A DNA stretch of 64,000 nt. Origin: Physcia stellaris. Lineage: Eukaryota; Ascomycota; Lecanoromycetes; Caliciales; Physciaceae. A program made the translations under genes and the position numbers. Of this stretch, positions 1,390 through 49,403 are shown piece by piece. The stretch lies in assembly GCA_018902385.1 (NCBI GenBank), contig JABSSW010000065.1:146144-210143 (forward strand), given 5' to 3'. Position 1 is the stretch's first letter. Each line of letters begins with the position of its first letter. The notes under the pieces are model-generated. The model had not been told where the DNA came from. It ran no database searches and saw only the letters and a list, made by a program, of their open reading frames with translations.

Positions 1390-3229
1390 ATGAATGCCTC
1401 TTCACCACTACCAAGGCAACATATGTCGCGCTTACTGCCCGAGGTCTCTATCAGCAAACCGCAGGACGAAGTGCAAGTATCGCAGCAAAACGATAACCGA
1501 AAGCTGTGTAAGTTCCCCGGTTTCGAGAGGTTTTCGGTGCTCATGATAGTGAATGGTCATAGTGACCCCACAGGCTTATGCAGAAGCTGTCAGTGAACAT
1601 GCCAAACAAGCGACAGAAGTTTCGCTTTATCCAGGCCAGAACTTTGAGAACCTTGCACGCTACCTGCTACGACCCTTCGAATCAACTGCCTCCAAAAATC
1701 CCTTTCAAGCACAAGCGCATCTAGCAGGTTTCCAACCAACACTGTATAGTTTTTATGCCTCGAAACCTAAGCGACGCATGGTACTTACCACATTAGAAGA
1801 CCTTTCACGAGGAAGGGAAATTCAGTCGCAGGATAATGAAGCTAACTCGTCCTCGATTCTGTTTGTGCGCGGACAACCGTCTGCTTTATGGCTGGCTGCG
1901 CTTGGAGCTACCTATCACATCGACCCAGAATACTATCAGAGGCATCTAGACTTTCGTTCTACGTTAGGAAGGCTGAACCACTTCTCCCTTCCTTCTCTGC
2001 CTTCATCCACGACTTACATCACAAAGCTTCGCTACATTACTATCTGTCAAAGCAACAGAAGAGCAGTATCGGATCAAGGGTTCATTGATTCATTGAGGTC
2101 CGATGGAAAGAAGGCCTTCGAACGGTACATGCATTCCCTCAATCAAAGCATTGAAAAGGGTATAGGAATTGGAAACTCTATTGTACGGGCTTACAACATC
2201 CATGACGACATTCATTCCTCCATTGAGCAAGAAATTTCAATCTACATGAGTCGGACTACGAGTGGTCCGATCTGTAAGTAACAGCAGCTTCCAAGTTGTC
2301 CCACCATACCGGTCCTGACTCCTCTGATAGGTCTGGTGTGGCTTGATACTGGGGAAGACTTAATGCAAGGCCCAGAAGGACCCTGGTTTATTAAGCCTGG
2401 AGACCGGAACGTGGGCTGGCCATACACCATTGTCCATCCCACAATACAGCACCAGCAGCAGATTAGCCTCAAAGCCCACCGGACGGCCATCAAGCAAGAC
2501 TTGCGACCAAAATCAAAGCTTGCTCAGAGTTCCTCACTTCTACATCTAGATTATGGAAAGCTGTACGACTCATCCGTAATGGCGTGTGACGCCTTCTATG
2601 CACTGGATGAGCTCTTCACATTCTGCGCAAATTCCGAGCTCCAATTCCTCAATCTAGTGGAGTCAAAGCTGTCTCAGGAGACTGGATATGCCCAGCTCTC
2701 GAACGACAACCCGCAGCTCTCAAACTTGCTTTACAGTCAAGACATACTCGAAGAGCACGCCAAGCGACTGCGCGAAAACATCGAGACCATCCGAATGCGG
2801 GGAGGTGCGAAATGGCCCCGAGCCTCGGAGCCCGCGATGAAGCATAAAGCAGAGTTTGCCGCAAGCTCCCTCTTGAAAGACTACGAGCATCTGCTCTATC
2901 GCACCGAAGCACTCTCGGAGCGGTGCCGACGCGGTGTCGGCGTGATCATGAGCAGTGCCAGTATCACCGAGTCGAAACGAGCCATCGCGCAGACCTACGA
3001 GGTGGCCAAATTGACCAAACTTGCGTTCTTCTACGTCCCGTTGACCTTCACCACTTCGATTTTTGGCATGAATCTAACGCCGATTGCGGCCGATCAGCGG
3101 AATAGTTTGTGGCTGTGGGTTGTCGTCTCGATTCCGGTCCTGATGATTTCACTTTTCGCACTTGTATATGACGTTTCTTCTCTGTTCAAGCGTGGCAGGC
3201 TGTTTTTGTCTAAATTCTTTAGTCGTTGA
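1390..3229 (+). CDS. CorA-like Mg2+ transporter family protein
   Basis: Three exons (1390-1507, 1587-2273, 2331-3229) join in phase to a 567-residue protein. The C-terminus has the CorA signature: a first membrane helix at about residues 499-517 ending in GMNL (514-517), a short loop, and a second helix at about 528-548, followed by a basic cytoplasmic tail. The long N-terminal part is soluble and poorly conserved, as in the many fungal CorA-like proteins that are much longer than bacterial CorA. Just before the helices lies a helical stretch (SESKRAIAQTYEVAKLTKLA-like), as in CorA stalk helices. The GMN motif is the selectivity filter in true CorA Mg2+ channels. The ion moved by this fungal subgroup is not established. 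The start at 1390 is the first usable ATG in the exon-1 frame; an extra upstream exon is possible. Confidence 0.8.
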
Positions 3230-3596
3230 AAATGAGGATTGTCTATAGTAGGAGTCGGGAGATGATGTATGAAATTTGGGTGTTGATATGGATAGGATGG
3301 GGTACATGACCTTGCTGAGCGTTTTGGACATAGTTATCTCTAGATTTTGTATAGCATATAGCATAGCGCGCCAATCTTCGTTTTCTCGGTTTCTGTTTAT
3401 AGGTCCCGTCGAGACTCGCTCCTGTTTTTATTTTGGATCTTGGAGTAGCGCTGCTTCGCCGGTACGAGGATCGGGTGGAAGTGTTATCTAGTTGTGATTC
3501 TGCGTGAGCTGTTTCCACTTGGTTGGCAAGGCGTGCGCGAACTTGGACCCGCGACGTATACACCTTGGACTGCCAATATTCGGCAACTCGAAGCAT
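3230..3596. other. Convergent intergenic spacer
   Basis: It separates the CorA-like gene from a minus-strand frame, so it should hold two 3' ends. The short frames here show no family resemblance. Confidence 0.45.
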
Positions 3597-4019
3597 TCAC
3601 TCGCTCCTCTTCTGAATTGAGTATATGCAGTGCATCAAGTAAAGGTCAATTGGGGGATGAAGGCCAGTAATGCCGTTTGTTTGGATATCTTCACGCATTG
3701 AGATCCTACCGTAATCCAATCCCCAAGTCTCGGCAGCTACGATCAAGAGTTTCTCCACATCGCCAGGATCATGCCATGTCTTAGGTCTTGCAATCAACCA
3801 CTTCCTGTAGCCAGATGGGCTCTGTTCGGACTTACACCTTTGTCGTGAACAAAATCCCATTTTGTCGAAAGCTTCTTTCTTTGAGTGCTTCGCCGGTCTC
3901 GCTCTAATTTCGATATGTTGCCGCGGCATCGAGATGGCGACAGCCTTTTCGTAGAGCTGCTGCGACGGTTTGCTTGACCTGTCTGTTACCAAGATCACCC
4001 TGGAAGGTTCCGAGACCGA
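3597..4019 (-). CDS. Hypothetical protein, last exon (5' part unresolved)
   Basis: An open minus-strand frame of 140 residues runs from a good acceptor (CCGCAG just above 4019) to the stop at 3597. It has a protein-like composition: a beta-type strand SRVILVTDRS, a Cys pair in GFCSRQRC, then GYRKWLIARP and VAAETWGLDYGRIS. I do not recognise the family. No convincing start lies in the exon itself. A possible donor (GTTAGT) about 60 bp upstream follows a stretch reading DNLDHACQAL, but the phase does not join, so the 5' exons are uncertain. It lies 317 bp downstream of the ketosamine kinase on the same strand. It may be a separate gene or a remnant. Confidence 0.4.
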   Translation of the reverse strand, partial: SVSEPSRVILVTDRSSKPSQQLYEKAVAISMPRQHIEIRARPAKHSKKEAFDKMGFCSRQRCKSEQSPSGYRKWLIARPKTWHDPGDVEKLLIVAAETWGLDYGRISMREDIQTNGITGLHPPIDLYLMHCIYSIQKRSE

Positions 4020-21635: not shown

Positions 21636-21715
21636 AACGATATATGTTTTATTTGTTTTATTTGCGATCAAATTTAACGATCAATTACGTTTTGTGTAAA
21701 CTGATCGCGTCGAAT

Positions 21716-21960
21716 CAAGAACTTGAAAAAAATCAAAAATTTGATTCGAAAAAATCGAATCAAATTTGAAATGTAAAATTTGAAATTTGTTTTAACGTCA
21801 AATTCAAATTTTTGATTTTAATGTCAAATTCAAATTCAAATCGACATATTCGATTTGAAATTTGTTTTGACGTCAAATCAAATTTTTTTTTTGAATTTGA
21901 AATTTGATTTGAAAAATTTGATTTGATTTGAAATATTATTGATAAAAAATAATAAAAATA
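21716..21960. repeat. Left flank array of the composite
   Basis: Irregular repeats of TTTGATTTGAAATTTG and GTCAAATTCAAATT words with a spacing of about 40-60 bp. The composition and words match the array at 33,935-34,140. Being partly self-complementary, it does not allow the orientation of the two arrays to be decided by eye. Confidence 0.5.
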
Positions 21961-22149
21961 AATTTTATTTTTACAAATTTTATTGAAAAAAAAAAAATAT
22001 TACAAAAAATTTTAAACATGAATAATGAATAATGAATTTTGATAATACAATTTGAAAAAAAAAATTGATCATTATTCACAAACAAATGATAATGCATCAT
22101 GATAATGCATATTCGTTATTTAATCAAATTAAAAATCGAACATTATGAA

Positions 22150-22950
22150 ATTTGTATCGTTCGTATTTTCGTTATTTTCGAATTCGTTTTCGTCATCGAA
22201 ATTTTTCACGTTGTTTTTTTTTTCGTTATCGTCGTCGTTTTTTGCATTTTTTTTTTTTTTTGATCGCATTGAAAAATTCGATTTTAATATTTCGATTTTT
22301 CGCATTGTGCGAAAATGCAAAATTTTTAATTGTTTTTCGCATTTTTTTTATCGCGTTAACAAAATTCGTCGTTTTCAATGCGCGAATTTTCATATTATCA
22401 TAAAAAACGCGTTGCGCGATCAATTTCGTCATAAAATACAAATATTTTTTTATTGCGTTTTGCGTTCGTTCAATGTTTTCATTTTGAAATTAAAATGAAT
22501 CATTAATGAAATTAACAAATTTTGACATTGAAAATTCATCGATTGTTGCGCAAATTCGAAATTTGTTGTTTGACGTATGATTTCGATTGCATTTTTTTGA
22601 ACATCGTTTTGTCGTGTTTGTTCGTCGAATTTTTTTTTTTTTTGTTTTGTCGATAAAATTCATTTTTCAAAAAACACGCTAAAAATTAATTAAAAATCGC
22701 AATTTTTATATGCATTATTCGATTGCATTATCATGATTGTCGTTTTCAATACGAACATCGAACATTTTTTTTTTATCATTTTTTTTCATAGTTTTGCGAT
22801 TTTTTTCATCAAATTCAAATCAAACAATAATTTTCATCAAATTTTTTTGAATTTGAACACAACGACATTGTCGACATTTTGTGTTTTGTAAAATTTGATT
22901 TGAATTTTCGATCAATTTTTTTTTTTTTCGCGATTAACGACATTTTTTGA
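22150..22950 (-). pseudogene. Divergent relic, unit 1: basic/acidic protein, possible histone fold
   Basis: The minus strand keeps a frame of 71 codons (22,441-22,226) with ALKTTNFVNAIKK and SHNAKNRNIKIEFFNAIKK, followed by Lys/Arg runs and an acidic Asp/Glu/Asn-rich tail in a neighbouring frame. The same frame is kept in unit 2. The AKxRxIKIxFxNAIKK stretch resembles the last helix of H4/H2B-type histone folds, but only weakly. Upstream, near 22.86-22.9 kb, lies a region that in unit 2 reads as a Cys cluster. The gene is decayed; an intron-like spacer at 22,710-22,737 has the paired box motif in the minus orientation. Confidence 0.35.
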
Positions 22951-23399
22951 ATTCGTCGAATAAATTTTAACAAATGTAAATTGTGCAAATTCGAACATTT
23001 TGATGATAAATATCAACACGATAATGCGACAAAAAAATGCATCATTTTTGAACAATGTTCAAAACGTACGTCGAATATAAATCAATATCAATTAATCGAT
23101 AAAATTGAAAACAAATTTGTGATTGAATTCATCAACAAACGTGTTGCGATAAACAGTTGAATTATATTTAAAAACGAAAAATGAATCAAATTTGAAAATT
23201 CGAATTAATGTTTATTCGTTAAATTTGTGAATTTGTGTGCAATGAAATTGATTAACATCGATAATGCGATATAATCATGCATTCAATTTTGAAACGAAAA
23301 ATAACGAATATTACACACGAAAATAATCAAATTTAACAAATGATTTATCAATATCGAAAGAAAAAAAATTGAAAATGTTGTAAAAAATCAATCGAAAAT

Positions 23400-24660
23400 T
23401 ATTGACACGCGATTTTTGCGTTTATCGAAAAAATTTAAACGTCGAAATTAAAAACAATATTTCGATACAAAAAATTTAATTAAACATTCAACACGATCGC
23501 ATCGATATTTTCGCAACGTTTGCAAATAATGCAAATTTGTATCGCGAAAAAATGAATTTATTGATTGATGAACAACAATCGTTTCATCGCATGTTTAATT
23601 TTGTAATCAATAATAATTTTATTAAATTTTCATTTGTAACAACAATAGATAAATAAAATAATGCATGAAAATAATGCATAAATTAACAAAATTTAAAATA
23701 CTTCAACGTTCATTCAAAATTTAAAAATTTTCAAAACGTTCAATCAACAATTGCTATTGTTATGACGATGAATGAAAACGATAAAAATATTGCTGATAAT
23801 ATTTCAACGAAAAATGTGAACATTGATAAAAATGATAATGCAAAAAAATAATGCATAAATTAACAAATGATAAAACGTTTTGTTGAAAAAAATTGCATTG
23901 TTTGTTTCGTTTTCAATTAATATTTCGTCGATCAATTGAAACGTTTTTGCGAACGTTGTTCGAAAATTTAAATCGAAAATCGTTGTTGAAATGTTTATTG
24001 AATTTGTTAATGATAAAAAATTTGAAAAAACGCGAAATGATGAAATCGTTGATATTAATAATCATAATGATTTTTCGTTTTGTAAATCGAATAATGCATA
24101 ACGATAATGCATAAATTAACAAATCATCGCAATTGTTGAAAATGAAAACATTCAAAAAAAATTCGAAATATCAACATTTCAAATGTTTGAAAATCGAAAA
24201 AATGTCGAAAACGATAAATCGAATGAAAAAATATTTGATGAAAATGAAATCAAAATTGTTCACAAATTCGATATTCATGATATTGTCATTATTCATATTG
24301 AATTCGAAAATGATAATCAAATTTCAAATAAATCGAATAATGCGTCAAAATAATGCACAAATTCACAAATCGAAACACGCGTCATGAAAAAAACAAATCG
24401 ACAAATGAATAATGACATTAATGTGAACAAAAACAAAACGTTGATTACAAAATGATTAAAAATAAACATGATCGCGTTCAAATTTTTCGCGTTCAAATTT
24501 TTTGCGTTCAAATTTTTTGCGTCGAAATTTTTCGCGTTCAAATTTGTCAATAAATCGAACAAAAAATCAATCGCAAAACGTTTGAATTTATTGATTAAAA
24601 AAAAATCGCGAACAAATCGATAATGCATTCAAATCATGCGTTATCGAATATTGATTAACA
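23400..24660 (+). pseudogene. Upstream exons of the H3-fold gene, unit 1
   Basis: Several short acidic or mixed frames are separated by spacers with paired ATAATGCA boxes; many end in KS(N) just before a spacer. Near 23.5 kb the equivalent of a finger-like segment is seen. These look like exons of the same gene as the H3 fold. The exact exon borders cannot be fixed. Confidence 0.4.
24473..24545. repeat. 15-bp coding minisatellite, 5 units
   Basis: Units of about GCGTTCAAATTTTTC, some one base off. In the frame that continues to the H3 region in unit 2, it encodes a five-residue repeat with one lysine per unit. Confidence 0.8.
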
Positions 24661-24669
24661 CATCAATAA

Positions 24670-25043
24670 AAACACAAACGAACAAAATTCGAAATAATCG
24701 CATTGCGCGAAATCAAACGTTTTCAAAAAACGATTGAATTTTTAATTAAAAAAATCGTTCGTGAAATTTGTGAAAAAAATGATGCAAAACATAAAAAAAA
24801 ATGTCAAAATTCAAACATCGATTTTTGAAATTTTGCAAAAAAAAATATCGAAACGTTTGTCACAAAAATGTTTGAAAATAAATCAAATGCATTATTTTTG
24901 CGCATTATTTTGTTGATTAATTTTTATGAATAATTAATGCAAAAACGATTCATGCGAAACGAATAATTTTTCAAATGAAAAATATTCATTTTGTTCGAAA
25001 AATTTTGAAAATGTTTGTGAATAACAATGTTACAATTATTTAA
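24670..25043 (+). pseudogene. Histone H3-fold relic, copy 1
   Basis: The plus strand reads, in order: IALREIKRFQKTIEFLI (the alphaN helix; H3 has [16 protein letters not shown]), then SFVKFVKKMMQNI (alpha1), VKIQTSIFEILQ and KNIETFVTKMFEN (alpha2), and after an AT-rich interruption KTIHAKRIIFQMKNIHFVRK (alpha3; H3 has IHAKRVTIMPKDIQLARR). The order and spacing are those of histone H3. The protein differs from canonical H3 at many sites, more like a CENP-A-type or otherwise divergent variant. The frame is broken by decay. The interruption before alpha3 contains the paired TGCATTAT motif and may be an intron. Confidence 0.72.
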
Positions 25044-25199
25044 ACACAATGTTATTTTTGTTGAATAATTAATTTACATAATTTGAATTCGTGTTTGAAT
25101 TGTTTTTTATATCAATATTTGTCATGCGTGAAATGAAAATTAAATAATAATGCATGATAATAATGCATTTTCGTTATTTAATCAATTTAAAAATCGAAC

Positions 25200-26100
25200 A
25201 TTATGAAATTTTTATCGTTCGTATTTTCGTTGTTTTCGAATTCGTTTTCGTCATCGAATTTTTTCACGTTGTTTTTTTTTCGTCATCGTCGTCGTTTTTT
25301 GCATTTTTTTTTTTTTTTGATCGCATTGAGAAAATCAATTTTAATATTTCGATTTTTCGCATTGTGCGAAAAAACAAAATTTTTAATTGTTTTTCGCATT
25401 TTTTTCATCGCGTCAACAAAATTCGTCGTTTTCAATGCGCGAATTTTCATATCGTTATAAAAAACGCGTTGCGCAATCAATTTCATCATTGAATACAAAT
25501 ATTTTTTATTGCGTTTTGCACGCGTTCAATGTCGTTATCGTTTTGCATTTAAAATGAAACATTAATGAAATTAACAAATTTTGACAAATTTTGACATTGA
25601 AAATTCATCGATTGTTGCGCAAATTCGAAATTTGTTATTCGACGTATAATTTCGATTGTATTTTTTTACATCGTTTTGTCGTGTTTGTTCGTCGATTTTT
25701 TTTTTTATTTTGTTGATAAATTTCATTTTTCAAAAAACACGTTTAAAATTAATTAAAAATCGCAATTTTTATATGCATTATTCGATTGCATTATTATGAT
25801 TGTCGTTTTCAATACGTGCATCGAAGCATTTTTTTTTTTTATTTTTTTTCAAAATTTTGCGATTTTTTCATCAAATTCAAATCAAACAACAATTTTCATC
25901 AAATTTTTTTGAATTTGAACACAACGACATTGTCGACATTTTGTGTATTTTGTACAATTTGATTTGAATATTCGATCAATGATTTTTTTTTTCGCGATTA
26001 ACGATATTTTTGAATTCGTCGAATAAATTTTAACAAATATAAATTGTACGAATTCAAACATTTTGAATGTAAATATAACACGATAATGCGACAAAATAAT
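25200..26100 (-). pseudogene. Divergent relic, unit 2: Cys cluster plus possible histone fold
   Basis: The 5' part reads NCTKYTKCRQCRCVQ (about 25.92-25.97 kb), a finger-like Cys cluster. The 3' part (25,498-25,283) keeps 71 codons with LKTTNFVDAMKK and SHNAKNRNIKIDFLNAIKK, then basic runs. The conservation of this frame between two heavily mutated copies suggests it was the coding frame. The histone-fold reading is tentative; an unrelated basic nuclear protein is possible. Confidence 0.35.
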
Positions 26101-26416
26101 GCATTATCGTTGAACAATGTTTCAAAACGTACGTCGAATATAAATCAATACGAAATAATCGACAAAATTGAAAACAAATTTGTGATTGAAATCATTAACA
26201 AACGTAATACGATAAACAATTGAATCATATTTGAAAACGAAAAAAAAAACAATCGTGAAAATACAAAATAATATTTAATCGTCAAATTTGAAAATTTATT
26301 TGTAATAAAATTGATTAACATCGATAATGCGATATAATAATGCATACAATTTTAAAATATTCACAACGTAAATGATGAAACGAAAAATAACGAATATTAC
26401 AAAAAAATAATCGAAT

Positions 26417-27760
26417 ATGCGAAATGATTTATCAATATCGAAAAAAAAAAAAATTGAAAATGTTATAAAAAATCGATCGAAAATTGTCGACACGCGATTG
26501 TTACGTTTATCGAAAAAATTTAAACGTCGAAATCAAAAACAATATTTCGATGCAAAATATTTAATCAAACATTCAACACGATCGCATCAATATTTTTGCA
26601 ACGTTTGCAAATAAAACAAATTTGAATCGCAATGAAATGAATTTATTAATTGTTGAACAAATTTCGATAAAACGCATCGACAATTTTATTGAATATTCAT
26701 TTGTGACAATAATAAATAAATAAAATAATGCATAAAAATAATGTGTTGATTAACATTAATTAAAACATTTCAATTTATATTCAAATCACAAAAATTGAAT
26801 TATATTTTTATCAAATGATATCGATGTTATCAATTTCATAAATCAATTTTTAAATGTTGTCGATTTTCAAACAAACATTGAAAATAACGAAAATAATATT
26901 GATGATAATTCGAAAAATGTTCAAAATACGAATAAATAATAATGCATGAAAATAACGCATAAATTAACAATTTTCAAAATTTAAATTCGCGAAAATTGAT
27001 TTGTTTATTTCGTTTATGACGAATATTTAATCGTTCAAATTTAATGTTTTGAAAAACGTGATACGAACATTTAAAACGACAATCGATACGAAATTTGAAA
27101 AAACGAAAAATGATGAAATCATTGATGTCAATAATAATATCAATAATAATAATAATTTTTTTTTTGATAAATTAAATAATGTATGAAAATAATACATAAA
27201 TTAACAAATTATAACAATTGTTAAAAATACGAAAAACTCAAAAAAATTCGCAATGAAAACGATTCAAAAATCTGAAAATTCAAAAAATGTCGAAAACAAT
27301 ATTTCGAATGAAAAAAAATTTGATAAAAATGAAAATTTGAATGCAAATCAATTCGATGATAATAATTTTGACGATAATAAAACGAATAACGATAAAAATG
27401 ATCGAATTTTGAATAAATCGAATAATGCGTCAAAATAATGCACAAATTAACAAATCGAAAAACGTCGTAAAAAAAACAAATCGACGAATGAATAATGACA
27501 TTGATGTAAACAAAAACAAAACGTCGATCAAAAAATCACAAAAATTGATTTTTATCGCGTTCAAATTTTTCGCGTTCAAATTTATTGCGTTTAAATTTTT
27601 TGCGTTCAAATTTATCGCGTTCAAATTTTTCGCGTTCAAATTTGCAATTCAATCGAACAAAAAATCAATCGCAAAACGTTTGAAATCATTAATTAAAAAA
27701 AAAATCGCGAACAAATCGATAATGTATTCAAATTATGCGTTATCGAATATTGATTAACAC
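26417..27760 (+). pseudogene. Upstream exons of the H3-fold gene, unit 2
   Basis: The first frame (26,417-26,614) ends with YLIKHSTRSHQYFCNVCK, which has the His-x4-His and Cys-x2-Cys spacing of a C2H2-like finger. Acidic exons follow (27,253-27,425, rich in Asn, Asp and Lys), then the minisatellite tail (27,556-27,643), then the H3 fold. An N-terminal finger with a C-terminal histone fold is the inferred layout. Confidence 0.4.
27556..27643. repeat. 15-bp coding minisatellite, 6 units
   Basis: The same 15-bp unit as at 24,473, with one more copy, inside a 110-codon open frame (27,425-27,757). The repeat count differs between the tandem copies, so it changed after duplication. Confidence 0.8.
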
Positions 27761-27764
27761 ATCA

Positions 27765-28142
27765 ATAAAAACACAAACGAACAAAATTCGAAATGATCGC
27801 ATTGCGCGAAATTAAACGTTTTCAAAAAATCATTGAATTATTAATTGCAAAAAAATCGTTCGCAAAATTTGTGAAAAAAATGATGCAAAACATAAAAAAA
27901 ATGTCAAAATTCAAATATCGATTTTTGAAATTTTGCAAAAAAATATCGAAACGTTTGTCACAAAAATGTTTGAAAATAAATCAAATGCATTATTTTTGCG
28001 CATTATTTTGATAATTAATTTTTATAAAATAATTCATCAAAAAACGATTCATACGAAACGAATAATTTTTCAAATGAAAAATATTCATTTTGTTCGAAAA
28101 ATTTTGAAAATGTTTGTGAACAACAACGTTACAATCATTTAA
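27765..28142 (+). pseudogene. Histone H3-fold relic, copy 2
   Basis: This is the same arrangement as copy 1. KHKRTKFEMIALREIKRF resembles the H3 stretch [16 protein letters not shown], followed by KIIELLIAKKSFAKFVKK, then LQKNIETFVTKMFEN, and finally KTIHTKRIIFQMKNIHF. The alphaN-alpha1 part is one continuous frame here. Upstream lies the 15-bp minisatellite, which would encode a repetitive tail, and an intron-like spacer. The homology to copy 1 comes from the tandem duplication. Confidence 0.72.
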
Positions 28143-28247
28143 ACACAACGTTAATTTTGTTGAATAATTAATTTACATAATTTAAATTCGCGTTTGAATT
28201 TTGTTTTTCAAATCGATATTTGTTATGAATGAAATGAAAATTAAATC

Positions 28248-29489
28248 GATTAACATTTAAAAAACGCGAAATGTCAAATTATGTATGTATTTAACGATTT
28301 TGTTATCGAATCATCATCAAAATCATATGAAACGAAAACAAAATTTTTGTCAAATATGACGTAACAAAATATTATTAATTTTCATGCTGTTTATAATTGA
28401 TTTCGATTTATAACAATATTTCATGAAATAATAATAATATAATAAATGACTTTTTGTCAATTTTGAACAATACATTATATCATTATTTTTCATTTTAATT
28501 TTTGAATTGTTAAAATTTTATTTATGTTTTTCAAATAACACAATATAAATATGAATTTTAATTTTTGCATTAAATTATTGCGTGCAAAAAACTTAAAAAA
28601 TATTAAATATCGAATTATTCGAATATTTAATTTTTCAAAAAATCAAAAATCATCATAAATAAAACAAAACAAATGTTCATAATAACAATATTTGTTTTTT
28701 AATAAAATTGAAATTCATTTTCGATTGTTGAAAACAAATAATTTTAATACATCGAAATAAAAAATAAATAAAAAATATCGATTTAAAAAAACAAAAAAAA
28801 ATAAAATATTATTCGATTAATTTCATATATAAATCAAAACAATACGATTTGATATGTTATTTCAAATATATCATATATGTTTGTATAAATCATTTAAATA
28901 AATTAAATTATTAAAACATATATTATTTATATTACAATTATAAATTTATAATTATATTAATTATTATTATATTATTATATTTTTTTTTCGCAATTCGCAT
29001 ATGATTAATAAAATGACAATTTTTGTAATTTTATAATAATTTATATATAACATAATATTGAAATTTCAATGTTATATTATTTCGTACGTTTTTATTTTAT
29101 TAATTGTTTAAATTATTGTACGTTAATATTTTAATTTCAAATTTGTATTTTTAAAAACAAATATTTGTATTATATATATGTTTGAATTTGAATTGAAAAA
29201 ACGTTTATATTGAATTTCAAATTTTTAATTTTAAAAATGTATTTCAATTAAATTTTAATTTTTCAAAATTCGAATATAATTAATATCGATATTCGTTTTG
29301 AAAATTTCAATTGATTGAATTTTTCAATGAAAAATTTATAACATTAATTTTTATATACGAATTAACATGTTCAATAATTTTTTAATTAATTTAATATTTT
29401 GTTTTGAACAATTATTCGTTTTGCATGAATAATTAATTTGTTAACAATTAATAAATGTCAATAAAATTATAATTTCAAAATTCGAACAA
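28248..29489. other. Extremely AT-rich spacer
   Basis: This is the poorest GC stretch in the window, between convergent relics. No gene is seen. Confidence 0.6.
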
Positions 29490-29706
29490 TTAAAAAAAAT
29501 ATTTATTTTCGAATATATCAATGACATAAATTTCGATTGTTTTTTGTAATGTTTTCAAAACATTTGTTTGAATTCGTATTTCGACATTTTGATCAATTAT
29601 TTCAAACAAAATTTTTCGAAACATTCGTTGAAATGACAATTTTGATATCATAAAATCAATCGATTTTTGATATTTTCGAATTTTTTAAAAACGTTCAATC
29701 GCGTTT
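29490..29706 (-). pseudogene. Histone H3-fold relic, copy 3 (opposite strand)
   Basis: The minus strand reads KIRKYQKSIDFMISKLSF and then QRMFRKILFEIIDQ, closely matching H3 ([20 protein letters not shown], LVREI). It continues with VEIRIQTNVLKTLQ, KTIEIYVIDIFEN (H3 alpha2: ALQEATEAYLVGLFED). The alpha3 segment was not found. Sequence outside the fold differs from copies 1 and 2, so this is a separate family member rather than a recent copy. Its agreement with H3 makes a chance reading very unlikely. Confidence 0.72.
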
Positions 29707-29864
29707 TGTTTTTGATTTAATAAAAATCAATTTGTGCGAATCAAATGCATTATCAATATGCATTATTTTTTTTGATTTCGATTTTTTGTTCGAAACATTA
29801 TTCGAAACAATTTTACGCGAAATTTCAAAAACGATCAAATCGATTTGAAAATCTTTTTGTTGAA

Positions 29865-32800
29865 TCACAAATTTTTTTTTGCGCGAATTTTTTTTTCAAC
29901 ATCATTTTTACGATTTTTATTTCGTGAATTTTTAATTCGTTTATTCACGATTTTTTTTCGCGAATTATTATTGATTTGAAATTGATTAATTCGTTTTTGA
30001 ATCGTTAAAAATACGACGATGTTTTCGTTCGCAACAATATCGTTAAATTTCGATATTTTTCGCGATTTTCGATGCACATTATCAATATTTTTTTCGAAAT
30101 TTTCAACAAACGAATTGATTTTTTCATTTTTTTTGTTTTCGACATCATTCAAAAATTTCGTAATCATGATATTTAAAAAATCATTTTTCAATTTTTAATC
30201 GTCAAATACATTATTATTAAACATTATTTCGATTCATTTTATCGATGATTTTTTCGAAATTTTCAACAAACGAATTGATTTTTTCATTTTTTTTGTTTTC
30301 GATATCGTTCAAAAACATCGTGATTATTGTATTTAAAAAATCAATTATTAATTTTTAATCGTTGAATGCATTATTATTAAATATTATTTTGATTTATGTT
30401 ATCGATGTTTTTTTTTTGTTTTTTATTCGTGTCATTCAATTCAAATTTTAAACATTTTTTCAAAATCGAAAAATCGATATCAATTTCGTTTTTCATGAAT
30501 GTTTTATCGTTTCGCGAATTAAAATTTTCAATTTCGAAAATGTTTGAATTTTGAAAATGTTTTGATAAATTTGTCGTTAAAAAAAATTTTCGAACAAATT
30601 TTGTTGTATTATCAATAATATATTCAAACAATAAAATGAAAAATACAAATTTTCAAATTTTATAAAATTAAATGTTTGTTTGCGTTACGAAATAATTTAT
30701 CAAATAAATTATTAATAATAAATTAATTAAAATACTAAATTGAAAATTGAAAAAAAAAAAAAAAAAAAAATCAACGTTTATACGATTCGAAAATTAAATT
30801 TTGCAATTATATGCGATTATGCGCAATTTAATTAATATTTTCGATGTTTTGATTGAATGCAAATAATTTATGCATTATTTGTTTGCATTATCGATAATTA
30901 TTGCAAATTTCATTTCAAATCGTTTATTATTAAATTTTGAAATCATAAAACGAAACACTTTTTTTATTGAACGACGAAAACATTTTTTATCGCAATTTCA
31001 TTATTTTCGTTTTTTCATCGTTTTATTAAATTTCAAATTTTCGAAACAACATTTTTAAATTTTGCATTCATCGTTCGATTATAATATTTGATTATCATCG
31101 TTTTTTCAATCGTTTTTTGATTCAACATTGTTCGATCATATTTACAAATTCGACGTGTCAAATTGAAAATTCGTTTCATTTTTATCGATGAAACAAAACA
31201 AAACAAAATATTTTTCGTCATTCGAATCAATCGAAAAAAATTCGAAACATTATCGTTTCAATATTGTCAATTAAAATTTTTTTTCATGATTGATATAAAA
31301 AAATAACGTTCGATTTCGTTTTGTAATTGTTTCGATTTTCGATTCGATCGCAAAATCGAATTAATAAAAAAAATTTATTGTTTTGTTAAATTGAATTTCA
31401 ACGCATTATTTTGATACATTATTTTTTTATCGAACGATTAAAAAATAACGCGTTGAAAATCATCATATATTTTGTCATTATAATAATTTCGATAATAATT
31501 CAAAAATCGTTTACGAACGTCATTGATATACGCATGTTTTTTTTTTTTGTGATTTTTTCGAAATTGTCATTTTCATTTCAGATTTCATAAATCGATAATT
31601 TGTTGATTGAATTTAAAATATTAACAAAATCGTATATCAATTCATTATTTTTTTTTGTTTTCGCATAATATTTGAAAAGTTTTTGAATGATTTTCGCACA
31701 AACAATCAAAATTAATGATTTGTCGAAATATTAATTTTGTCGTATCGTTTCATTGAAATAATTCAAATGATCGTATAAAAAATTGAAAATTTTAAATTCA
31801 ATTTGCACATTAATGTTCGTAATTCGTGAAACAATCAACGTGATTTCGTAAAATGTTTTTAACATGTTTTCGAAAAATAAAATTTGATTTCAATTATCAT
31901 CAAATATTCGAATTTTGACAATTTTGACATCGTTGCGATTTTTTTGAATTCATTTATCAACGAATCGTCGAAATTGATAAACACGTCGTATCATAAAATA
32001 GCAAAAATTTCAACGAATTTTGACATTTTGTTTCAATTTTCGAAAACGTTTAATTTTTGTTTTTTTTTGTAATTTCACAAAGCGAATTTTTCGTTGCGAA
32101 AAAAAATTAATAACAATCGTCAAAACACGAATTTGATTATTTTGTTAACAAATGCATTATTTTTTTGTATTATCAAATTGATTTATTTTTTTAACGATTT
32201 TTGACATTTTTGTATTTTGTTCGATGTCATCGATTTGATCATTTTTCAAATTTTGAATAACATTATCGTTAATAATTTCGATTTCAATCGAGTTGATAAA
32301 ATTTTGTGCGATTAAATTGCACACATGAATTAAACAATTCATGAAATTTTGATTTACATTTCAATTAATGTTCATTTCAATCATCGTTAAATTCAATAAT
32401 TGTTTGAAAATGCGATTATTAAATGCATTATCAATCGTGATCGTTATTAATTTTTTTGTTATTTCATAAAATTTTAATATTGACAACAAAAATTTAACAT
32501 TTTTTTTTCGTCATGACAAACATTTAACGAAACAAAATCGATAAATTTTTTTTGATATTGAAAATTAATATTCATTCAATATATTATCACATTTAAATAA
32601 GCGATTTTTTCTTGATTTGATCAAACATTTAACGAAATAAAAATTCGATCAACATTTTTCAATTCGTTTTTCAATTGATCACGAATTTTTTTATAATTTT
32701 TCGTTACAAATTGATTTAATTTGATACGATGTAATAATTTCAAAATGAATCGATTCATTTTCAAACATATTCGAAAATGTTCGTTTTCGATCGTTCGATA

Positions 32801-33135
32801 AAAAAATCACAAACAATAAAAATTTTGATTAAATGTTTTTCAAAGAATTTTTCGTCGAATGTTGCACGAAAATCGAATTTTTTTTTTTTTAATAAAAATA
32901 AATAAATGCATTATTAACATGCATTATTCAACAAATTTACATTAACATTTTCGAAAAATTCGATTATTTTTTGAAAATCAAACGATATTGTTCGATTTTT
33001 TTTTTCAATTTTAAAACGATGTTTTGCGTTTTTCAAATGTTTGTTCATGACGTTGATGTCGTTATTTGCGTTTAACGAATGTTGTTGAATTTTATAACAT
33101 GTTTTACAAACAATCATTGATGTTTTGTTAAACAT
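29865..33135 (-). pseudogene. Minus-strand finger/acidic exons upstream of H3 copy 3
   Basis: Frames on the minus strand: 33,135-32,914 begins with a Met and has VCKTCYKIQQHS...MNKHLKNAKH, a Cys2/His2-like finger; 32,342-32,157 is acidic; 31,230-31,033 is basic; 30,631-30,377 is acidic; 30,191-29,865 ends in a strongly basic stretch (KKIVNKRIKNSRNKNRK) just before H3 copy 3. Spacers between them carry reversed box pairs. The order finger, acidic, basic tail, H3 fold parallels the left-half genes. Whether it was one gene is inferred. Confidence 0.42.
30086..30310. repeat. Internal direct repeat, about 160 bp apart
   Basis: 30,086-30,150 and 30,247-30,310 share a nearly identical block (CGAAATTTTCAACAAACG and what follows). 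On the minus strand it encodes KINSFVENFEKNID-type sequence, so it looks like an exon duplicated together with its spacer. Confidence 0.65.
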
Positions 33136-33934
33136 TTTCGTTATTTGAACAAATTTTTGTCAACATGAAACAATTTTATTTTTTTTGTTCGATCAATGTG
33201 AATTATTGTATTTTGTTTGAATTTTGTTCAAAATATTTTCATCAAAATTGATTTGTTTTTATCATTTTAAAAAAGCATTCGAATTTTTTTTTTTTCAAAA
33301 TACATATTTTTTATTGTTATGAAAATTAAAATCAAAATGTTTTGTTCGAAATTTTTCGTCAATTTGATTATTTGATTTTGACGATTATCAAAAATTGAAC
33401 TTATCGATAATTGAAATTTGTGATAATTATTAAAAATTGAAATGATTGATTGTTAAAAATTGTCAATTAACATATCGTTATCGTCGTTCATGATGAACGA
33501 ACTTTTTAAATCTTGAATTGAAAACGAAAAAAAATTCGAAAACAATTCGAAATTCGACATTTTATTTGACATTTGAATAAATGATAAAAATAATGCAAAA
33601 TGATAATGCAATTTGAAACATTAATTGTATATAACACGAAATTAAATTTCAAAATAATGTACAAAAATAATGCAAATATAATAATTGCAATTGTTCGATG
33701 AAAATTTTGAATCAAAAAATAATATATTTCAAAAAATAATAAATTATCGAAAAGAATTGATGATTGAAAAATACAATTTAATAATAATTTCGAATACAAA
33801 ATAATATTATGATTATCACGTTTGATTTATATGAAATAATGCAAAAAAAAATTCGAAAATTTTGAAAAAAAAGCATTTATAATTAATATCAAAAATATCG
33901 CGAAATAATATAATACGTCATGAAATTAAAATTC

Positions 33935-34140
33935 TTGACGAATCAAATCAAATTCGACATCGAAATTTGAAATTTGATTCAAATTCAAATCAAATCTTGA
34001 CATTTTGATTTGAAATTTGATTCAAATTCAAGTTTTTTAACGTGTCAAAAGTTTGAATTTGATTCAAATTCAAACTCAAATCGAAATTTTCGATTTGCAA
34101 ATCGAATCAAATCGACGCATTCGAATTTGAAACTTAATTC
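33935..34140. repeat. Right flank array of the composite
   Basis: Irregular repeats of GAAATTTGATTCAAATTCAAAT words, of the same kind as 21,716-21,960. It abuts the hAT relic. Confidence 0.5.
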
Positions 34141-34149
34141 GACGATCAA

Positions 34150-35957
34150 TTTATCGATTTCAATATTTTTCAAATTTTTTGTAATTTTATCGATTGACAA
34201 CGTTATTATCAAATTCGAATTATGTAACGAAATTTTCGTTACGAATTTGTGCATCAAAAAATCAAATACAAACAATATTTTGTTGATCGTAAATTCACGA
34301 TTTTCAATAATTTTGATGATTTCGAAAAATAATTTCAAAAAGTTTTTCATTTTTGTAAACGTCATTCAATCAAAAGCAAATAATCGATCGTTTTTCAATT
34401 CGAATTTTTCGTTGACAAAAATATTAATCGTCGTTTTGATTTTATTCAAAATTCAATTTATCATTATGTATCAAACATTTCATTTCGTAAATTGATTTCG
34501 TTTAGACATTAAATTTTTGTTGATATTCGTGAAACGTTGTACGCGTTAAAAAATGCGAAAAATGTAAATAATGATATTATGAAATTTTTTTTGCGAATTT
34601 AATTTTTTGTATTTTTGCAATTCGACATTGAATTTTTTTGTTTGACGAATATTGACGACGATTCGATATTCGACGTCAAAATGTTTGTCAAAAAAATAAA
34701 TTTGTATTGTTAAATTGATGATGTGATTTATGCAACGTAAACGATGTTTTATCGAATCATAATCAATATCGTGTTATTTTTGAAAAGTTTTCAATATTGT
34801 TTGCATCATCGTATCGTTGTTTTTTGCATTATTTATGACGAAATAATTTAATTTATCACGTATTTCATATTCGTTAAACGTTTGAAAAACAATTACAATC
34901 ATATTTTCGTCGAAATGAATTTTTTGCAATTTTTTTAACGCGAAAAAAATAGTTTTTTGTTGTATATTTTCATTGATAAAATGAAAAACGATAATCAACA
35001 TGTTCAAATTGTTTGAAAAATTTCAAACATCACATGTAATGTGAATATCGAATATCGTTTAACGTAATTTTATTTCTATTTTTTTCTGATTTTTTTTGAA
35101 AAATTTTATAATTTTTTCTTGATGATATTATTCGAACGAAAAAACATGTTGTTGACGAATGCGTTAATATAATATAAAAAAATTCGAAAATCGTTATTGA
35201 ATGTTTGATCGAAATTGAAATTGAAAACAATAATTCAACGCATGTATAAATATTCGATCATTTTTTTATTCATTGATCGAATCAAAAATTCGTTCAATTG
35301 ACGATTTTTTCGTTTATTTTTCAATTCGAATTGACGATTGAAAATTGTTTCGATTTTGATTTGATAAATCGTTTTTTTTTTTGCGATTTGTTCGATATAA
35401 TGATTTCATGTTTTTTTTTTAAATGATTGATTTGATTGAATTTTTTCGAATCGTAAACGTAATTTTTGAAATAACGATTGCATTGTAAACGTTTGACATC
35501 GATAATTGAATTTGTAATAAATGTAAAATGATCGTGAATGTTCGACGTGAATTTTTTTATGTTTTGTTGAAATAAAAAAAACTCGAAAAAATTTTTGATT
35601 TGATTTGAAAATTGCATTGTTAACGATTGATATTTTCGATTCGTATTCGAAATTCAAATTCGAATTATTTATTTTTTCAATTTCATGATAATTCGTTTGA
35701 TTCGCAATCAATTGATTAAATTTTTAATTATCGTTGAATTTCATGCGTTTCGATTTGAACGAATTGATTGACGTTTTTTGATTCGTATTGAATTGTTGCG
35801 ATATTTTTTGACGAAAACGATATTCAAATTCAACAAACATTCGTTTATCGATATTGCGAATGCGTTTCGCGACGAAATTTTTTGAATTGTTTGAAATTTT
35901 GTTGAAATATTTGTTAATATTCGTCGAATCATTTGATGATTCAATATCGAAATTCAT
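34150..35957 (-). pseudogene. hAT-family transposase relic
   Basis: On the minus strand, the N-terminal part (about 35.5 kb) reads LQCNRYFKNYVYDS and NQINHLKKKHEI, a BED-type finger. The core (35,007-34,774) reads FNEYEIRDKLNYFVINNAKN followed by NDT, the hAT signature seen in fungal copies as 'YGIxDKLGYFVLDNAxNNDT'. It continues in another frame with HRLRCINHIINL, the next conserved block (RLRCxGHIxNL). The C-terminal hATC dimerisation domain was not found; the element seems cut at the array at about 34.1 kb. Several frame changes make it inactive. It carries the same CpT-type hypermutation as its surroundings. Confidence 0.72.
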
Positions 35958-42618: not shown

Positions 42619-42913
42619 TGTAAAACATTCAAAATTCAAATCGACATAAAATATGATCGAATTTCGATAAAATCGAAATATGCATCATGATCACATGCAA
42701 AACAAATATCGAATTCGAAAAAATGTTGTTTGCATTTCTTTATACAACAACAAACAACAAGTCGAATGATTTGCAATTGAAATTTTTTATTCTTTTTATT
42801 CGTACATTTGTATATAACGAAAAAATAATGATTAAAATTTTTGATTTCTTAGAAATTAATCTAATTATCAATCAAAAACTATACATTTTTGATGTCACAT
42901 TTCGTATTTTACA
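42619..42913 (+). repeat. 5' LTR of element A
   Basis: 295 bp, TGTAAAACATTC to CGTATTTTACA. Its partner is at 48,790-49,084, the same length. Confidence 0.85.
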
Positions 42914-45900
42914 TTTTAATTTTTATCATAATCATCAAATTAATATCATTCGTGTATACAACACATCAAGTCAACATTATATTTGTTTTTTTTTTTTCAC
43001 GAACATCAATAAGTCGATTTTTGATTTTTCAAAATCAAACGTCATTTCGCAAAAATATCGAACATACATTCAACAACAAATTGTTCGATATGAAACATTA
43101 CGCAATCAAATCATTTCATCAATCGTTCAAATTATTTTTTTTCAAAAAAAAATCATTTTACATCAAAATAATGAACGACAAATCAAATTTATTTTCAAAA
43201 AACAATTACAAAAAATGAATTCAATACGTTTGAAAAATGAAAAATCAATTCGACATGAATCAAACGAACGAATACGTCGAAAATTCGAACAAAATCAAAT
43301 TTTTCTTTGTTGTCATTTTTTTGAAAAGAAAATTTAATGTTCAATTGTTGTAAAATGTCAAAATCAAAAACAATTCAAATAAAAAATATACATGAAAAAA
43401 ATATGTTGACTTTTTCAAAAAAAACATTCAAAAAATTTTCATTAAAAAAAAAACAATTTTCAAAAATATAAAAATTATAAACAACGAATCAATCAATCAA
43501 TACGAAATTACGATGTTCATCGTATTGTTTTCGTTGCGAATTTACATTTTATCATGAAATTTCATTTGCAATAAAATTACAAAATTTCATTTTGAATTTT
43601 ATTCAAAACAATCAGAACTTTTTTGCAAAACAAAATATCGAAAACAACAAAAATGAAATTTTGAAACGTTTCAAATGTCGAAAGAATAATGAACGCAAAA
43701 AACAACGCAATTCAAACAAAAATAAATTTAAAAACGATTATAATAAACGCAAAAAAGACGAAAAAAATTCGACGAAAAAAAAAACAATAATCAATTTCGA
43801 TTCAACAAAAATCGAAAAGAAAAAAACGATAAAAAATTCAAATTTGATAATTTTAATCAAAAATCAATCAAATTCAAAAAAATTATGACGTTGAATCAAA
43901 AACGAATTCAAAAATATTATGAACAACAATAAATGCAAAAATTGCGATAAATCAAATTGTATTTTCAAAAATTGTAAAAATAAAAAATCGAAAAAATATA
44001 CATGAAAAATAACATTCGATTCGAAATCAAAAAAATAATCGATTTGATAATTTTCAATCAAATTGACACAATGAAAAATTTTATATTGAATAACGAAATT
44101 GATTTTAATTTTGACGAATCGTTTACGATCGATATCGAAATCAAAAACGTCAAACGTCGTCGAAAAAAATTTCGCATGATTAAATGCAAAAAAACAATGA
44201 TCAAAATAAATAAAAAATCAAACGAGAAAAACAAATTAAAATTCGAAACAATCATGAATTCAAAAACAAAAATCAATTTGATAAATAATATTTTTGTTAA
44301 ACAATTTGAATTAAAATCATTCAACGTGTTTAATTGCGAAACAATGATTATCGATAATCATTTTTTCAAAATTTATGACGTTTATTTCGTGCAATTCGAA
44401 ATGCAAAACGAAAACGATGTAAATCGTTTTTTCAATGATAATTTTTAAAAACGAACTTGACATGAAACATGACGTTAAATTTGTTATGAATGCAATTATC
44501 AAACGCAAAAATAAATTGAAAAATCGACAAAATCGAATCGTGATCATTGATTGTAAAATCAATTTTTTTTATCGTAAATCGTATCGAGAAAATCGAATCA
44601 AAAAAATTAATCAACGTTGTCGTCGATAACAAAAAACAAATTTTCGTCATGTTCGTACGAATTTTTCATGACGAAAAAAAAAAACATGAATAACGTACAC
44701 ATCGAACGACGAACACAAATCGATTCGATTTTTGCGAAAATAAAAAATAAATCAAATATCAAAATCATTATATTCGAAATTTTGAAAAAATTCGTTGATT
44801 TGACAAATAAAAACAAAATATACGAATTATTTGATCATGAATCAAACGATCATGTTATTGATTTGAAATCAAACAAAAATTTTTTTTATAATTTCATTTA
44901 TTCATTGTCAAAAAACGAATTTAAAATATTACGAATTTATTTGAATAAACATTTCAAAAACGATTTCATCAAATTTTTCATTTTTTCAATCGAAACATCA
45001 ATTTTGTTCGTCAAAAAAAAACGAAATTTTGAAATTATGTGTGAATTACAAAAACTTGAATTTTTTGACGATAAAAAATAAATATTTCTTGTCGTTAATC
45101 GATGAAAATCTAAATCGTTTGAACAAAATTCGCATTTATACAAGTTTCGATATGATAACAACATACAATAAACTACGTATCAAAAAAAAACGAATGAAAA
45201 ACGACGTTCAAAACACGATATGAACATTTTGAATATATCGTTTTATTTTTCGATTTTACTAATGCATTTGCGACGTTTCAAAATTTCGTCAATAAAATTC
45301 TGATCGAACGATTCGATTTCATTGTCATAATTTATTTGAACGATATAATCATATATTTCATAAACGAAAAACAACATATCGAAAACGTCAAATGAATGTT
45401 AAATCGTTTGCGAAAACACAAATTTTTCATCAATATGAAAAAATGTTAATTTTTCAAAAACAATATTGATTTTTTAGATTTCGTTGTATTTTCAAAAAAA
45501 ATACAAATGCAAAAAAATAAAATCGATATTATACAAAAATGATCGACGTTCAAAAACGTGTCAAAAATTTTGAAATTTTTGAATTATGCAATTTTTATAA
45601 ACGATTCATCAAGAATTTCAATAAATTGACATTATTTTTAATTTCAATGCTAAAAAAATCAACAAAATTTCATAAAAAAAAATCAAACGAAAACGTAATT
45701 CGAACAAAAATCGAAACAAAAATCATAACAAAAAACGATTATCGAATGATTTTTTGATTTTCGAAATTTACGAAATTTTCAAACGTTTACGAAATGCATT
45801 TCTGAAAATATTTATTTTGCAACATTTCGATTCGACTAAATTCATACGTGTAAAAATCGACGTTTCGAACAAAACAATAAATGAAATTTTTTGTCAATTC

Positions 45901-48789
45901 GACGATCAAAATTATTAACATTCGATAATTTATTTTTTCAAAAAAATGATTTCAACGAAATGCAATTATAAAATTCACGACAAAAAATTTTTGATTATAA
46001 TTTTCGCATTCAAACAATGACGTCATTATTTCGAAAAAACGAAAAAACAAATATTCGTTTTAACGAATCATCGAAATCTCAATCGTTTCATGATCACAAC
46101 GAAATTATCATTTCGACAAATACGATGAACGCAAAAACTGTTTCGTTACAATTTCGTCATCGATTATCGTTTTGACAACAAAAATTTTGCAATCGATTTG
46201 TTTCGACGATTTGATTATATGATCACAATTGAAAAAAAAATTGAAAACAATCGTTAGATTCTGACGCGTTTGCGACAATTTTTGTAATCGATTTCGAACG
46301 AATTTCAAATTTGCGTGAACGAAATTAAAACGACGATGTTCGAATTCAATAATGAAAAAAACAAATTTGCGAATGATTTTTTTAATTTTCAAAAATGTGC
46401 ATCAAACGTGATCATCGATGAATGAAAAATATTAATATTAAATAATGCAACGATTTTTCAATCGATCAACGAAATATTTGCAAAAAAACATATTCACGAA
46501 TTTGATGTTGCATACGACGATAAAATCATTGACAATTTCGTCGAATTGATACGTTCATTGCTAAATCAAAATTCATGCGCGATTTAAATGAAAAAAAACT
46601 AATTATTTTTGATATGTCACATTCGCATTGACAAAACGAAAAAAAAATATTGTGACACGATAATTATTTATACGTTTCGTCAAATTTGAAAAAAAATGTC
46701 ATAAAAACAAATCATAACAATTTTTTCGTTGATCATTTCGAAATAAAACGTATTTTTGAATTGATACGAAAAAAATATTATTGATTTAATCAAAAACGAA
46801 ACAATTTCGAAAAAAACGTCGAATACGATTCGAATATGCGTGCACAAATAAAAAAACATTGCGAAACATGTGTTATTTGCAAAAAAAACAAAATATTTCG
46901 TCACAAATCATATGAAAAATTCTCGTTTTTTTTATATCGAAATTCATATGAATTGATTTTACAATGAATTTCGTAACGAATTTTTCAAAAAACAAAACAT
47001 GAAATGAAACGACTTATGATGCAATATTCGTTGTGATAAATCGTTTGATCAAAATAACACATTACATTTCAATCACGAAAACGATGATCGCAAAAAATCT
47101 CGTCGAGATTTTAATTCGAAAAATCATTAAATTTCATGATTTTTCATCGTCAATAACAACAAACAAAAACTCGATTTTTATCGTTAAATATCATGACGCA
47201 TTATGTTATATTTTGAAAATAAAATTGAAATTATTCACGATTTATCATTCGCAAACAAATGATCAAACGAAATGACAAAACTTAATCATGAAACAATATT
47301 TCAAAATTTTTGTCAATTTTGAACAAAATGATTGAATGAAATTATTGTCGATAATTGAATTTGTTTATAACAATAATAAACATGCGTTCACGCAAATGTC
47401 ATCGTTTGAAACGATGCAAAAATACACGTTCAAAATGTTTTTCGAAAATTTTGCAAATTTTAAAGTTAAATTCAAATTTGTTAAAAAACATGTCGAAAAA
47501 CTGATCGAATTGATGAAAATATTGAAAATTAATTTAATTTACGTTCAAAAACAGCAAATTAAATACAAAAATGCAAAAATCAAATTGATGAATTTCGACG
47601 TGAAAAATTACGTCAACGTCAACGTCAAAAATATTCGTATCAAACGCAACAAAAAATTGAAATGAAAATTTTTCGAATCATTCAAAATATTGAATACAAT
47701 AAAAAATCAAACATATCGCATAAATATATTTAAACGTTGACGAATTCACAATGTTTTTCACGTTTCGTTGTTCGAAAAATCATATCTAAAAGAAAAAAAA
47801 ATTCGTTAAAATTCACATATCAGTCAAATGACATCGACATCGAAAAAAACGAAAAATTCATCAATGAAAAATATTGAATCGAAATCATTTTAAACAACAA
47901 AATTTACAAAAAAAATCAAGTTTCGAACAAATCATATAATAAATCAGAATTTTACTATTTCGTTCAATGAAAAAATTACGAAAAACGTATTTGAAAATTC
48001 GTTTCAATGATCAAGCATTTCAAAAATATGTTCAAAAAATTTCATATGAAAAATTCGAAAAAAAACGATATCAATAAATTTTGAAATCGTCGACGCGTTC
48101 GACGTCAAATAAATGTAATTTTCACGATGAAATCGTTGACAAAAAAATCAACATTTTACATTTGATTCGATGTTATTTATTGTTTAAAATTTACGACGCA
48201 TGAAAAACTGAATCGTGTCAAAAACATTTTCAAAAATTGTTGTTCGATTTGATTGAACGTTAAATATAAATGTGAAATATGATGTTAAATGCAACGATAA
48301 AAATATCGAAATTTGATATGTCAATTGCGATCGCGATTATTCGACGTTTATTTCGTTTAACAATTTGCAATAACATATCGATTTTGATATACGAAAACAA
48401 AAAAATGAAATATGCAAAAAAATTCGAATTCGATTTCGTTGTCAACAAATCAATTGTCAATTATCATATCGAAAATTGTGAATTGTACGAAATCAAATTA
48501 TCGATATTGAAAACAACAAACAATAAAATCATCAAATCATGTTTTTTTTGAATCATTCAAAAAAATGTTTTTTCAAATTTTTAACGCAAACTGACTGTGA
48601 ATTGCGAAAAATATTCGATGCGAAAATCACGATCACAATGATTTTTCAAATCAACGATTTTCGATGCGAAAATCACGACGACAATGATTTTTCAAATCAA
48701 AAAATATACAAATTTAGAAATTTTTGTTACAAAACAAATAAAAAAATTTTGATCATTTCAAAAAATTTCGATGTTAAAAAAAAAACGCA

Positions 48790-49084
48790 TGTAAAACATT
48801 CAAAATTCAAATCGACATAAAATATGATCGAATTTCGATAAAATCGAAATATGCATCATGATCACATGCAAAACAAACATCGAATTCGAAAAAATGTTGT
48901 TTGCATTTTTTTGTACAACAACAAACAACAAATCGAATGATTTGCAATTGAAATTTTTTATTTTTTTTATTCGTACATTTGTATATAACGAAAAAATAAT
49001 GATTAGAATTTTTGATTTCTTAGAAATTAATCTAATTATCAATCAGAAATTATATATTTTTGATGTCACATTTCGTATTTTACA
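48790..49084 (+). repeat. 3' LTR of element A
   Basis: 295 bp; about nine differences from the 5' LTR by eye, most of them transitions in CpT/ApG context. Confidence 0.85.
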
Positions 49085-49403
49085 ATCGCATTTTTGATAA
49101 TGTACGATTTTTGATTGATCGATTTGTTGAAATTTGATTCATTGATTGTAAAATTCGCGATCTTGATTGAATGCGTGATTTGAATAAAAAAATGTAAAAA
49201 ATATGTCATCAAAAATACAAAACATTTTGTATGACGAAACGATCGATTTTTTTGACATGATTTCGATAAATGTGAATTTGACGCGAATCATTTTCGTAAA
49301 AATGAATTGTTGAAAACATTTCGAATTTAACGTTTTCGAATTTTAACTAATAGACGTTTTTTGATTAATTGCGAATTTGAAATAAAAAATGATTCGAATT
49401 TGA

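Follow-up and report, generated by a model that had tools for sequence, protein, structure and literature searches.

In this study, we analysed a 64,000-nt stretch of contig JABSSW010000065.1 from the Physcia stellaris assembly GCA_018902385.1 (hereafter, the window), in which an initial annotation had noticed three places resembling histone H3. Our results indicate that these places are very probably dead H3-fold histone genes lying inside a 12.5 kb family of fungal hAT transposons. The element would once have held a transposase on the minus strand of its right part, two H3 genes of one class (class A) and one H3 gene of another (class B). The class A pair would have arisen by internal tandem duplication, the transposase would presumably have moved the whole unit, and after the spread to at least 19 places the copies read would have been mutated by a process resembling repeat-induced point mutation (RIP), with C changing to T before a pyrimidine. 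H3-carrying hAT elements are already known in fungi (PMC3538342, PMC6710886). The initial statement that no named fungal element carries H3 was wrong, because such elements had been published. New features are the co-occurrence of two H3 classes within a single element, a motif with a 13-bp period and decay at C before a pyrimidine (CpY), together with histone genes that are both more numerous and more diverged.

To look for the histone fold, we used a profile built from 25 natural H3 and CENP-A proteins, among which no copy of the element was included, and ran it on the six frames of positions 14-36 kb of the window, with TGA read as W and other stops as X. The minus-strand copy scored 52.0 bits (29487-29714), while the plus-strand copies scored 24.3 bits (27778-27948, with an extra piece of 7.8 bits at 27834-28115) and 21.6 bits (24679-24903, with an extra piece of 5.0 bits at 24900-25016). 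The top score among 100 dinucleotide shuffles of the same region was 3.3 bits, so that AT-rich shuffled sequence did not equal the matches. Thus, the three H3-fold relics on both strands were recovered, and the coordinates first given for them proved correct to about 10 bases. The H3 helices also follow one another in the order that had been described, although in the plus copies, which are broken by small frameshifts in the window, this order is readable only across frames. In some sister copies, the first exon lies in one frame, with a best E value of 1.2e-8 and internal stops.

The Pfam Histone model had been proposed as a check on the raw frames. When it was run on whole frames, the minus copy alone was reported (E=5.7e-5, 23.8 bits, under the curated cut-off of 26.4), and the plus copies were not. 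In a genome search with this model, the minus copy cleared the cut-off at 30.7 bits, and the listing contained neither of the window's plus copies. A total of 34 matches were listed in this search, comprising host genes as well as AT-rich copies across the genome, and at both C30 and C59 two plus-strand matches and one minus-strand match occurred within approximately 5 kb in an arrangement like that of the window. In addition, profiles of the two classes, for whose rows the exons were joined by hand, were compared with solved structures. Both matched histone H3 best (E 3.1e-20 for class A, with 60 of 173 matches listed; E 8.1e-20 for class B, with 60 of 176 matches listed), and the alignments covered 86-89 positions of solved H3 chains, which corresponds to the complete H3 fold, beginning with the N-terminal helix and ending with helix 3. 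On the minus strand, the stretch 22084-23084 appeared histone-like by eye and was considered as a candidate partner histone, which was rejected after giving no Pfam match in the window or in copy C91.

The two class A genes lie at equivalent positions of a pair of tandemly duplicated 3.1 kb units. Unit 1 (22084..25141, plus strand) holds gene A1, and unit 2 (25142..28246, plus strand), which is 83% identical to unit 1, holds gene A2; A1 and A2 are not independent copies but belong to a single tandem duplication. The fold region of A1 (24676..25043, plus strand) comprises an exon at 24676-24879, an inferred intron of approximately 54 nt and a last exon, and that of A2 (27775..28142, plus strand) comprises an exon at 27775-27977, an inferred intron and a last exon; both are frameshifted. 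The class B gene, with its fold region at 29354..29714 on the minus strand, is composed of an exon at 29714-29505, an inferred intron of approximately 59 nt and a second exon at 29442-29354, and it is likewise frameshifted in the window. The minus-strand copy had been called distinct, and class B is indeed a different gene: loop 1 has H3 length in class A and is three residues longer in class B. All three histone genes were present in nine of nine loci spanning their positions (the window, L009-L014, L023 and L026); eight of these, all but the window, were chosen for having a histone match, and the count thus says nothing about how often elements are without the genes.

Both classes show an intron-like break in phase 1 immediately after the FE codons, and omission of this break restores the H3 length. 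At the class B break, GT is kept in some copies and AG in most of the copies shown, while the class A intron end was placed with the help of relative P0122. The intron site would be common to both classes and absent from the host H3 gene (C26), whose own intron lies eight codons further on; the host CENP-A gene (C7) is split further upstream. Judging by its open frames only, class A seems to possess a long N-terminal region rich in lysine. When units 1 and 2 were compared in four copies, 0-6 transversions per 100-base bin were counted over the histone fold. Between window positions 23684-24384 and their counterpart in unit 2, there were 7-21 per bin, against 0-10 in the rest of the unit, and this contrast may reflect either a fast-changing histone N-terminal region or gene conversion elsewhere. 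Two further host genes were observed. At L022 (positions ~2418-3779; C52, near 302.4-303.8 kb), a host H3-like gene of normal GC content is split by an insertion of approximately 1 kb with inverted ends, and this gene may have the same intron site as the element histone genes. A second, diverged host CENP-A-like gene is located at L018 (C6:415593-415998), on a contig that also carries a copy of the element approximately 21 kb away.

The whole element occupies 21697..34153 of the window (strand unassigned), that is, 12,457 bp between inverted termini, with its borders taken from copy boundaries and aligned termini. The left terminus (21697..21720, plus strand) reads TAAACTGATCGCG in the window copy and TAGACTGATCGCG in less mutated copies, and the right terminus (34130..34153, minus strand) is an inverted version of it that differs in length by 2 bp. 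In little-mutated copies, TAGACTGATCG points inward at either end, and terminal inverted repeats as in hAT elements are therefore present. The copies are collinear across 21.7-34.15 kb and recur as a single block, which bears out the earlier suggestion of a mobile repeat family. Right ends were found at no fewer than 19 places including the window (2 kb right-end query, at least 87% identity over most of the query), and at least 15 left ends, again including the window, started at or near the terminus among the 40 of 261 left-end candidates scored; both counts are lower bounds. Both ends were present at 10 loci, of which nine are 12.2-13.0 kb long (two of them reaching a contig end) and one, C5, is approximately 15 kb long. 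The element copies L069 (C29) and L070 (C35) have 20 identical bases of left flank and, for this reason, may have been duplicated together with their surroundings. An Rfam search gave no match.

A decayed hAT transposase lies in several pieces at 30964..33258 on the minus strand, with piece borders set by eye. Its C-terminal hAT dimerisation domain (31266-31087, minus strand) scored 21.1 bits with Dimer_Tnp_hAT in the window, where the cut-off is 21.4. In copy C53, this domain scored 18.7 bits in a single frame, below the cut-off, and 23.4 bits when six pieces were joined; in the genome search, its score exceeded the cut-off for six copies of the element (C27, C47, C30, C31, C16 and C53). The joined C53 pieces also matched the plant protein DAYSLEEPER (E=7e-5, 20% identity over 52%). 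Judged from its dimerisation domain, the transposase is a predicted member of the hAT superfamily. A BED-like zinc finger at the start of the transposase was read by eye only and was found by no search.

The mutation pattern was compared in nine pairings of less and more mutated copies, and C to T changes were found mostly before C and T. The share of C changed to T was 90-100% at CC (one pair without any left to count), 37-96% at CT, 2-12% at CA and 1-4% at CG. From C53 to the window, for example, the changes amounted to 31/31 at CC, 293/313 at CT, 68/661 at CA and 7/470 at CG. Transversions between copies were 0.2-1.1% in the nine pairings, and because they are so few, the spread is judged to be young. 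In the 14-36 kb region, CC occurs 0 times and GG once; the dinucleotide CC is absent from positions 14000-36000 and 42000-64000, both AT-rich, and CpG is almost untouched there. The decay is RIP-like, with C to T before a pyrimidine. As in Neurospora-type RIP, C to T changes affect repeats, but the CpA preference is lacking: RIP is described as favouring CpA, followed by CpT, CpG and CpC, in Neurospora, and CpA and CpG in Trichoderma reesei (PMC5496416). Among the parts of the literature searched on mutation context, no CpC/CpT case like this one was found, which does not in itself prove its absence. We reasoned that the stop expected to arise anew is TGA from TGG and that the frames would consequently remain fairly readable. 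If the CpY context is general in Physcia stellaris, it would represent a kind of RIP whose preference is nearly the opposite of the usual one.

The search for less mutated relatives, which had been suggested at the outset, was successful for both classes in public assemblies. With class B, 5949 proteins were obtained, and among the 120 listed, 12 showed 68-88% identity over part of the query (P0001-P0006 and P0008-P0013), with P0032 being shorter (73%). With class A, 65 proteins were obtained, among which P0121-P0124 were close (50-74%). All of these close relatives lie on contigs of less than 5 kb. Four of them, P0122, P0124, P0009 and P0011, look little mutated, and their identity is 52-57% with host H3 and 44-51% with host CENP-A. 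No class B relative was confirmed in viral_contigs, which was searched with the class B query only, or in genome_contigs, which covers prokaryotes only.

In a phylogenetic tree of 36 rows, host CENP-A grouped with fungal CENP-A, and classes A and B joined (95/83). This joining is doubtful because the mutated rows share a biased make-up, and the clade was given up after it disappeared on removal of six mutated element rows and six rows with long branches, which left 24 rows whose relatives were all little mutated. In the 24-row tree, class B adjoins one H3, P0018 (91/94), and the CENP-A clade (99/97) excludes both classes. In the approximately unbiased (AU) test, the placement of class B with CENP-A was rejected (p=0.021), while that of class A with CENP-A was not rejected at 0.05 (p=0.064).

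Several origins of the three genes can be weighed against this evidence. One is plain transduplication, in which a hAT element accidentally captured a host H3 transcript or gene that was then amplified as useless cargo and destroyed by RIP. A precedent has been argued for Pseudocercospora fijiensis (PMC6710886), the AU test does not reject a grouping of class A with host H3 and one H3 of Filobasidium (p-AU 0.184), and no selection on the fold has been demonstrated, yet the inferred introns lie where host H3 has none, there are two distinct classes, one of them with the longer loop 1, and even the least mutated relatives reach only the identity to host H3 given above. We regard such an accident as possible but rather unlikely. 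Instead, we lean towards the view that the H3 genes have long resided in the lineage of the element and were not newly captured from host H3, because of their introns, their two classes and their strong divergence even in little-mutated relatives. A captured centromeric histone had been among the first proposals and is now disfavoured; in this reading, class B or both classes would derive from CENP-A and would have targeted the element or the centromeres of its host. The longer loop 1 of class B departs from H3 towards CENP-A, the 60 of 176 solved-structure matches listed for class B include fission yeast cnp1, and class A falls short of rejection, but the four least mutated relatives are nearer host H3 than host CENP-A, both classes stand outside the CENP-A clade, and class B with CENP-A is rejected. 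This origin seems improbable, with the rejection not being final because long branches are in play.

An undescribed virus-like or mobile element had also been proposed, and of this the mobile part stood, in the form of a hAT DNA transposon. Some giant viruses carry histones, but the element has inverted termini and a hAT transposase, the six frames gave no Pfam match to a viral family, and the viral contig collection yielded no confirmed relative with the class B query; a viral carrier is thus very improbable. Chance resemblance would be favoured by the abundance of K, N, I and F in AT-rich frames. Scores of 21.6-52.0 bits, when the highest value among 100 shuffles was 3.3, together with public relatives found independently, make its probability negligible.

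Some observations weigh against the reading of these sequences as long-resident H3 genes of a hAT element. With respect to the transposon, the scores of the hAT domain are modest, DAYSLEEPER is the sole protein match of the transposase, and a comparison of the transposase with PDB gave no match. Both termini were located in five of the eight copies tried for an 8-bp target-site duplication, and a duplication was seen in one of these five (C16, where 7 of 8 flank bases match, with one G/A difference), with no flank match at C65, C5, C44 and C47. No intact element was present among the copies read, which are a part of all copies. With respect to the genes, GT is kept at the class A break in one copy shown and AG in none. 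In the 24-row set, a single clade of classes A and B was not rejected (p-AU 0.365), and their joint origin is neither shown nor rejected; the grouping of class A with host H3 and the Filobasidium H3, not rejected as noted above, belongs here as well. Purifying selection on the fold was considered and set aside: of seven fixed transversions in the fold region, two were at codon position 3 in the first exon, one was in the intron and four were at positions 1-2 in the second exon. Between the units, conservation of the intron equals that of the exons, and gene conversion, which fits equally well, may therefore account for the low divergence.

The element shares with published H3-carrying fungal hAT elements an H3-fold gene between hAT termini at high copy. 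Manning et al. (2013) described a 5.6 kb hAT element of Pyrenophora tritici-repentis with an H3-like gene (H3L) fitting neither H3 nor CenH3 (PMC3538342). This element is similar to that of Physcia in its hAT transposase, terminal inverted repeats, H3-like gene and tens of copies. It differs in having a length of 5.6 kb (with a further 2.3 kb form), one H3L, a central open reading frame, near-identical copies and expressed sequence tags, whereas the Physcia element is 12.5 kb long and decayed, with three H3 genes of two classes. Dhillon et al. (2019) described a 9.5-9.9 kb hAT element of Pseudocercospora fijiensis with one or two H3-like copies, and H3-like repeats decayed by CpA RIP in five relatives of this fungus; the H3 was judged to be an old, intronless capture from a host transcript (PMC6710886). 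Here, too, a hAT element carries H3-like copies and decayed copies lie in AT-rich blocks. Judging from the published descriptions, however, that element is present in hundreds of copies, intronless, subject to CpA RIP and flanked by 8-bp target duplications, while the Physcia element has inferred introns, two classes and CpY decay. The second Pseudocercospora H3 copy has a 16-residue insertion (PMC6710886), and the inferred Physcia intron, if read through, adds approximately 18 residues. Fungal DNA transposons with a TET/JBP dioxygenase similarly carry a gene that acts on chromatin or DNA marks, although the cargo is a different one (PMC12730594). Judged by titles and the beginnings of abstracts, the literature searched contained no histone-carrying hAT element beyond PMC3538342 and PMC6710886.

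In addition, the element contains a bipartite motif consisting of the heptamer ATAATGC twice with a 13-bp period. In the window, [AG]TAATGC-N6-[AG]TAATGC occurs at 25 sites on both strands (22089..33673; 17 exact and 8 with one mismatch), all within the element, and heptamer pairs at most 40 bp apart occur at the 13-bp period only. The genome contains 336 occurrences of the motif versus 1 of the reversed pattern, and nearly all of the first ~100 places listed are in element copies. The 25 sites all lie clear of the histone exons and of the dimerisation domain. The motif may be bound by the transposase or by a different protein of the element, or it may mark related introns. Against the latter, introner-like reading, the class A intron has its motif site in reversed orientation, and the class B intron has no motif site. 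An exact copy was observed at C19:456008, outside known element copies, in an apparent intron of approximately 44 nt. Further along the window, 42619-49095 and 54038-60586 are two related repeats of approximately 6.5 kb, possibly long terminal repeat retrotransposons, which are flanked by direct repeats of approximately 306 and 330 bp (96% and 92% identical), respectively.

While alive, the genes might have produced H3 variants capable of being incorporated into nucleosomes and of altering the chromatin state of the element or the host to the advantage of the element, although such a role is a guess, and a tentative one. It is conceivable, if still unlikely, that fungal hAT transposons form a lineage with a long-lived H3 variant family of its own, comprising classes A and B with introns of their own and, in class A, a long N-terminal region that changes fast, which the element would use, for example, to wrap or mark its DNA against silencing. 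If this is true, the two published fungal groups and Physcia would represent one recurrent partnership and not repeated accidents, and an accidental origin becomes less likely with the finding of a further hAT element that bears H3 genes, in this case of two classes. These results raise the question of whether transposons use histones of their own, which the relatives in public assemblies make testable.

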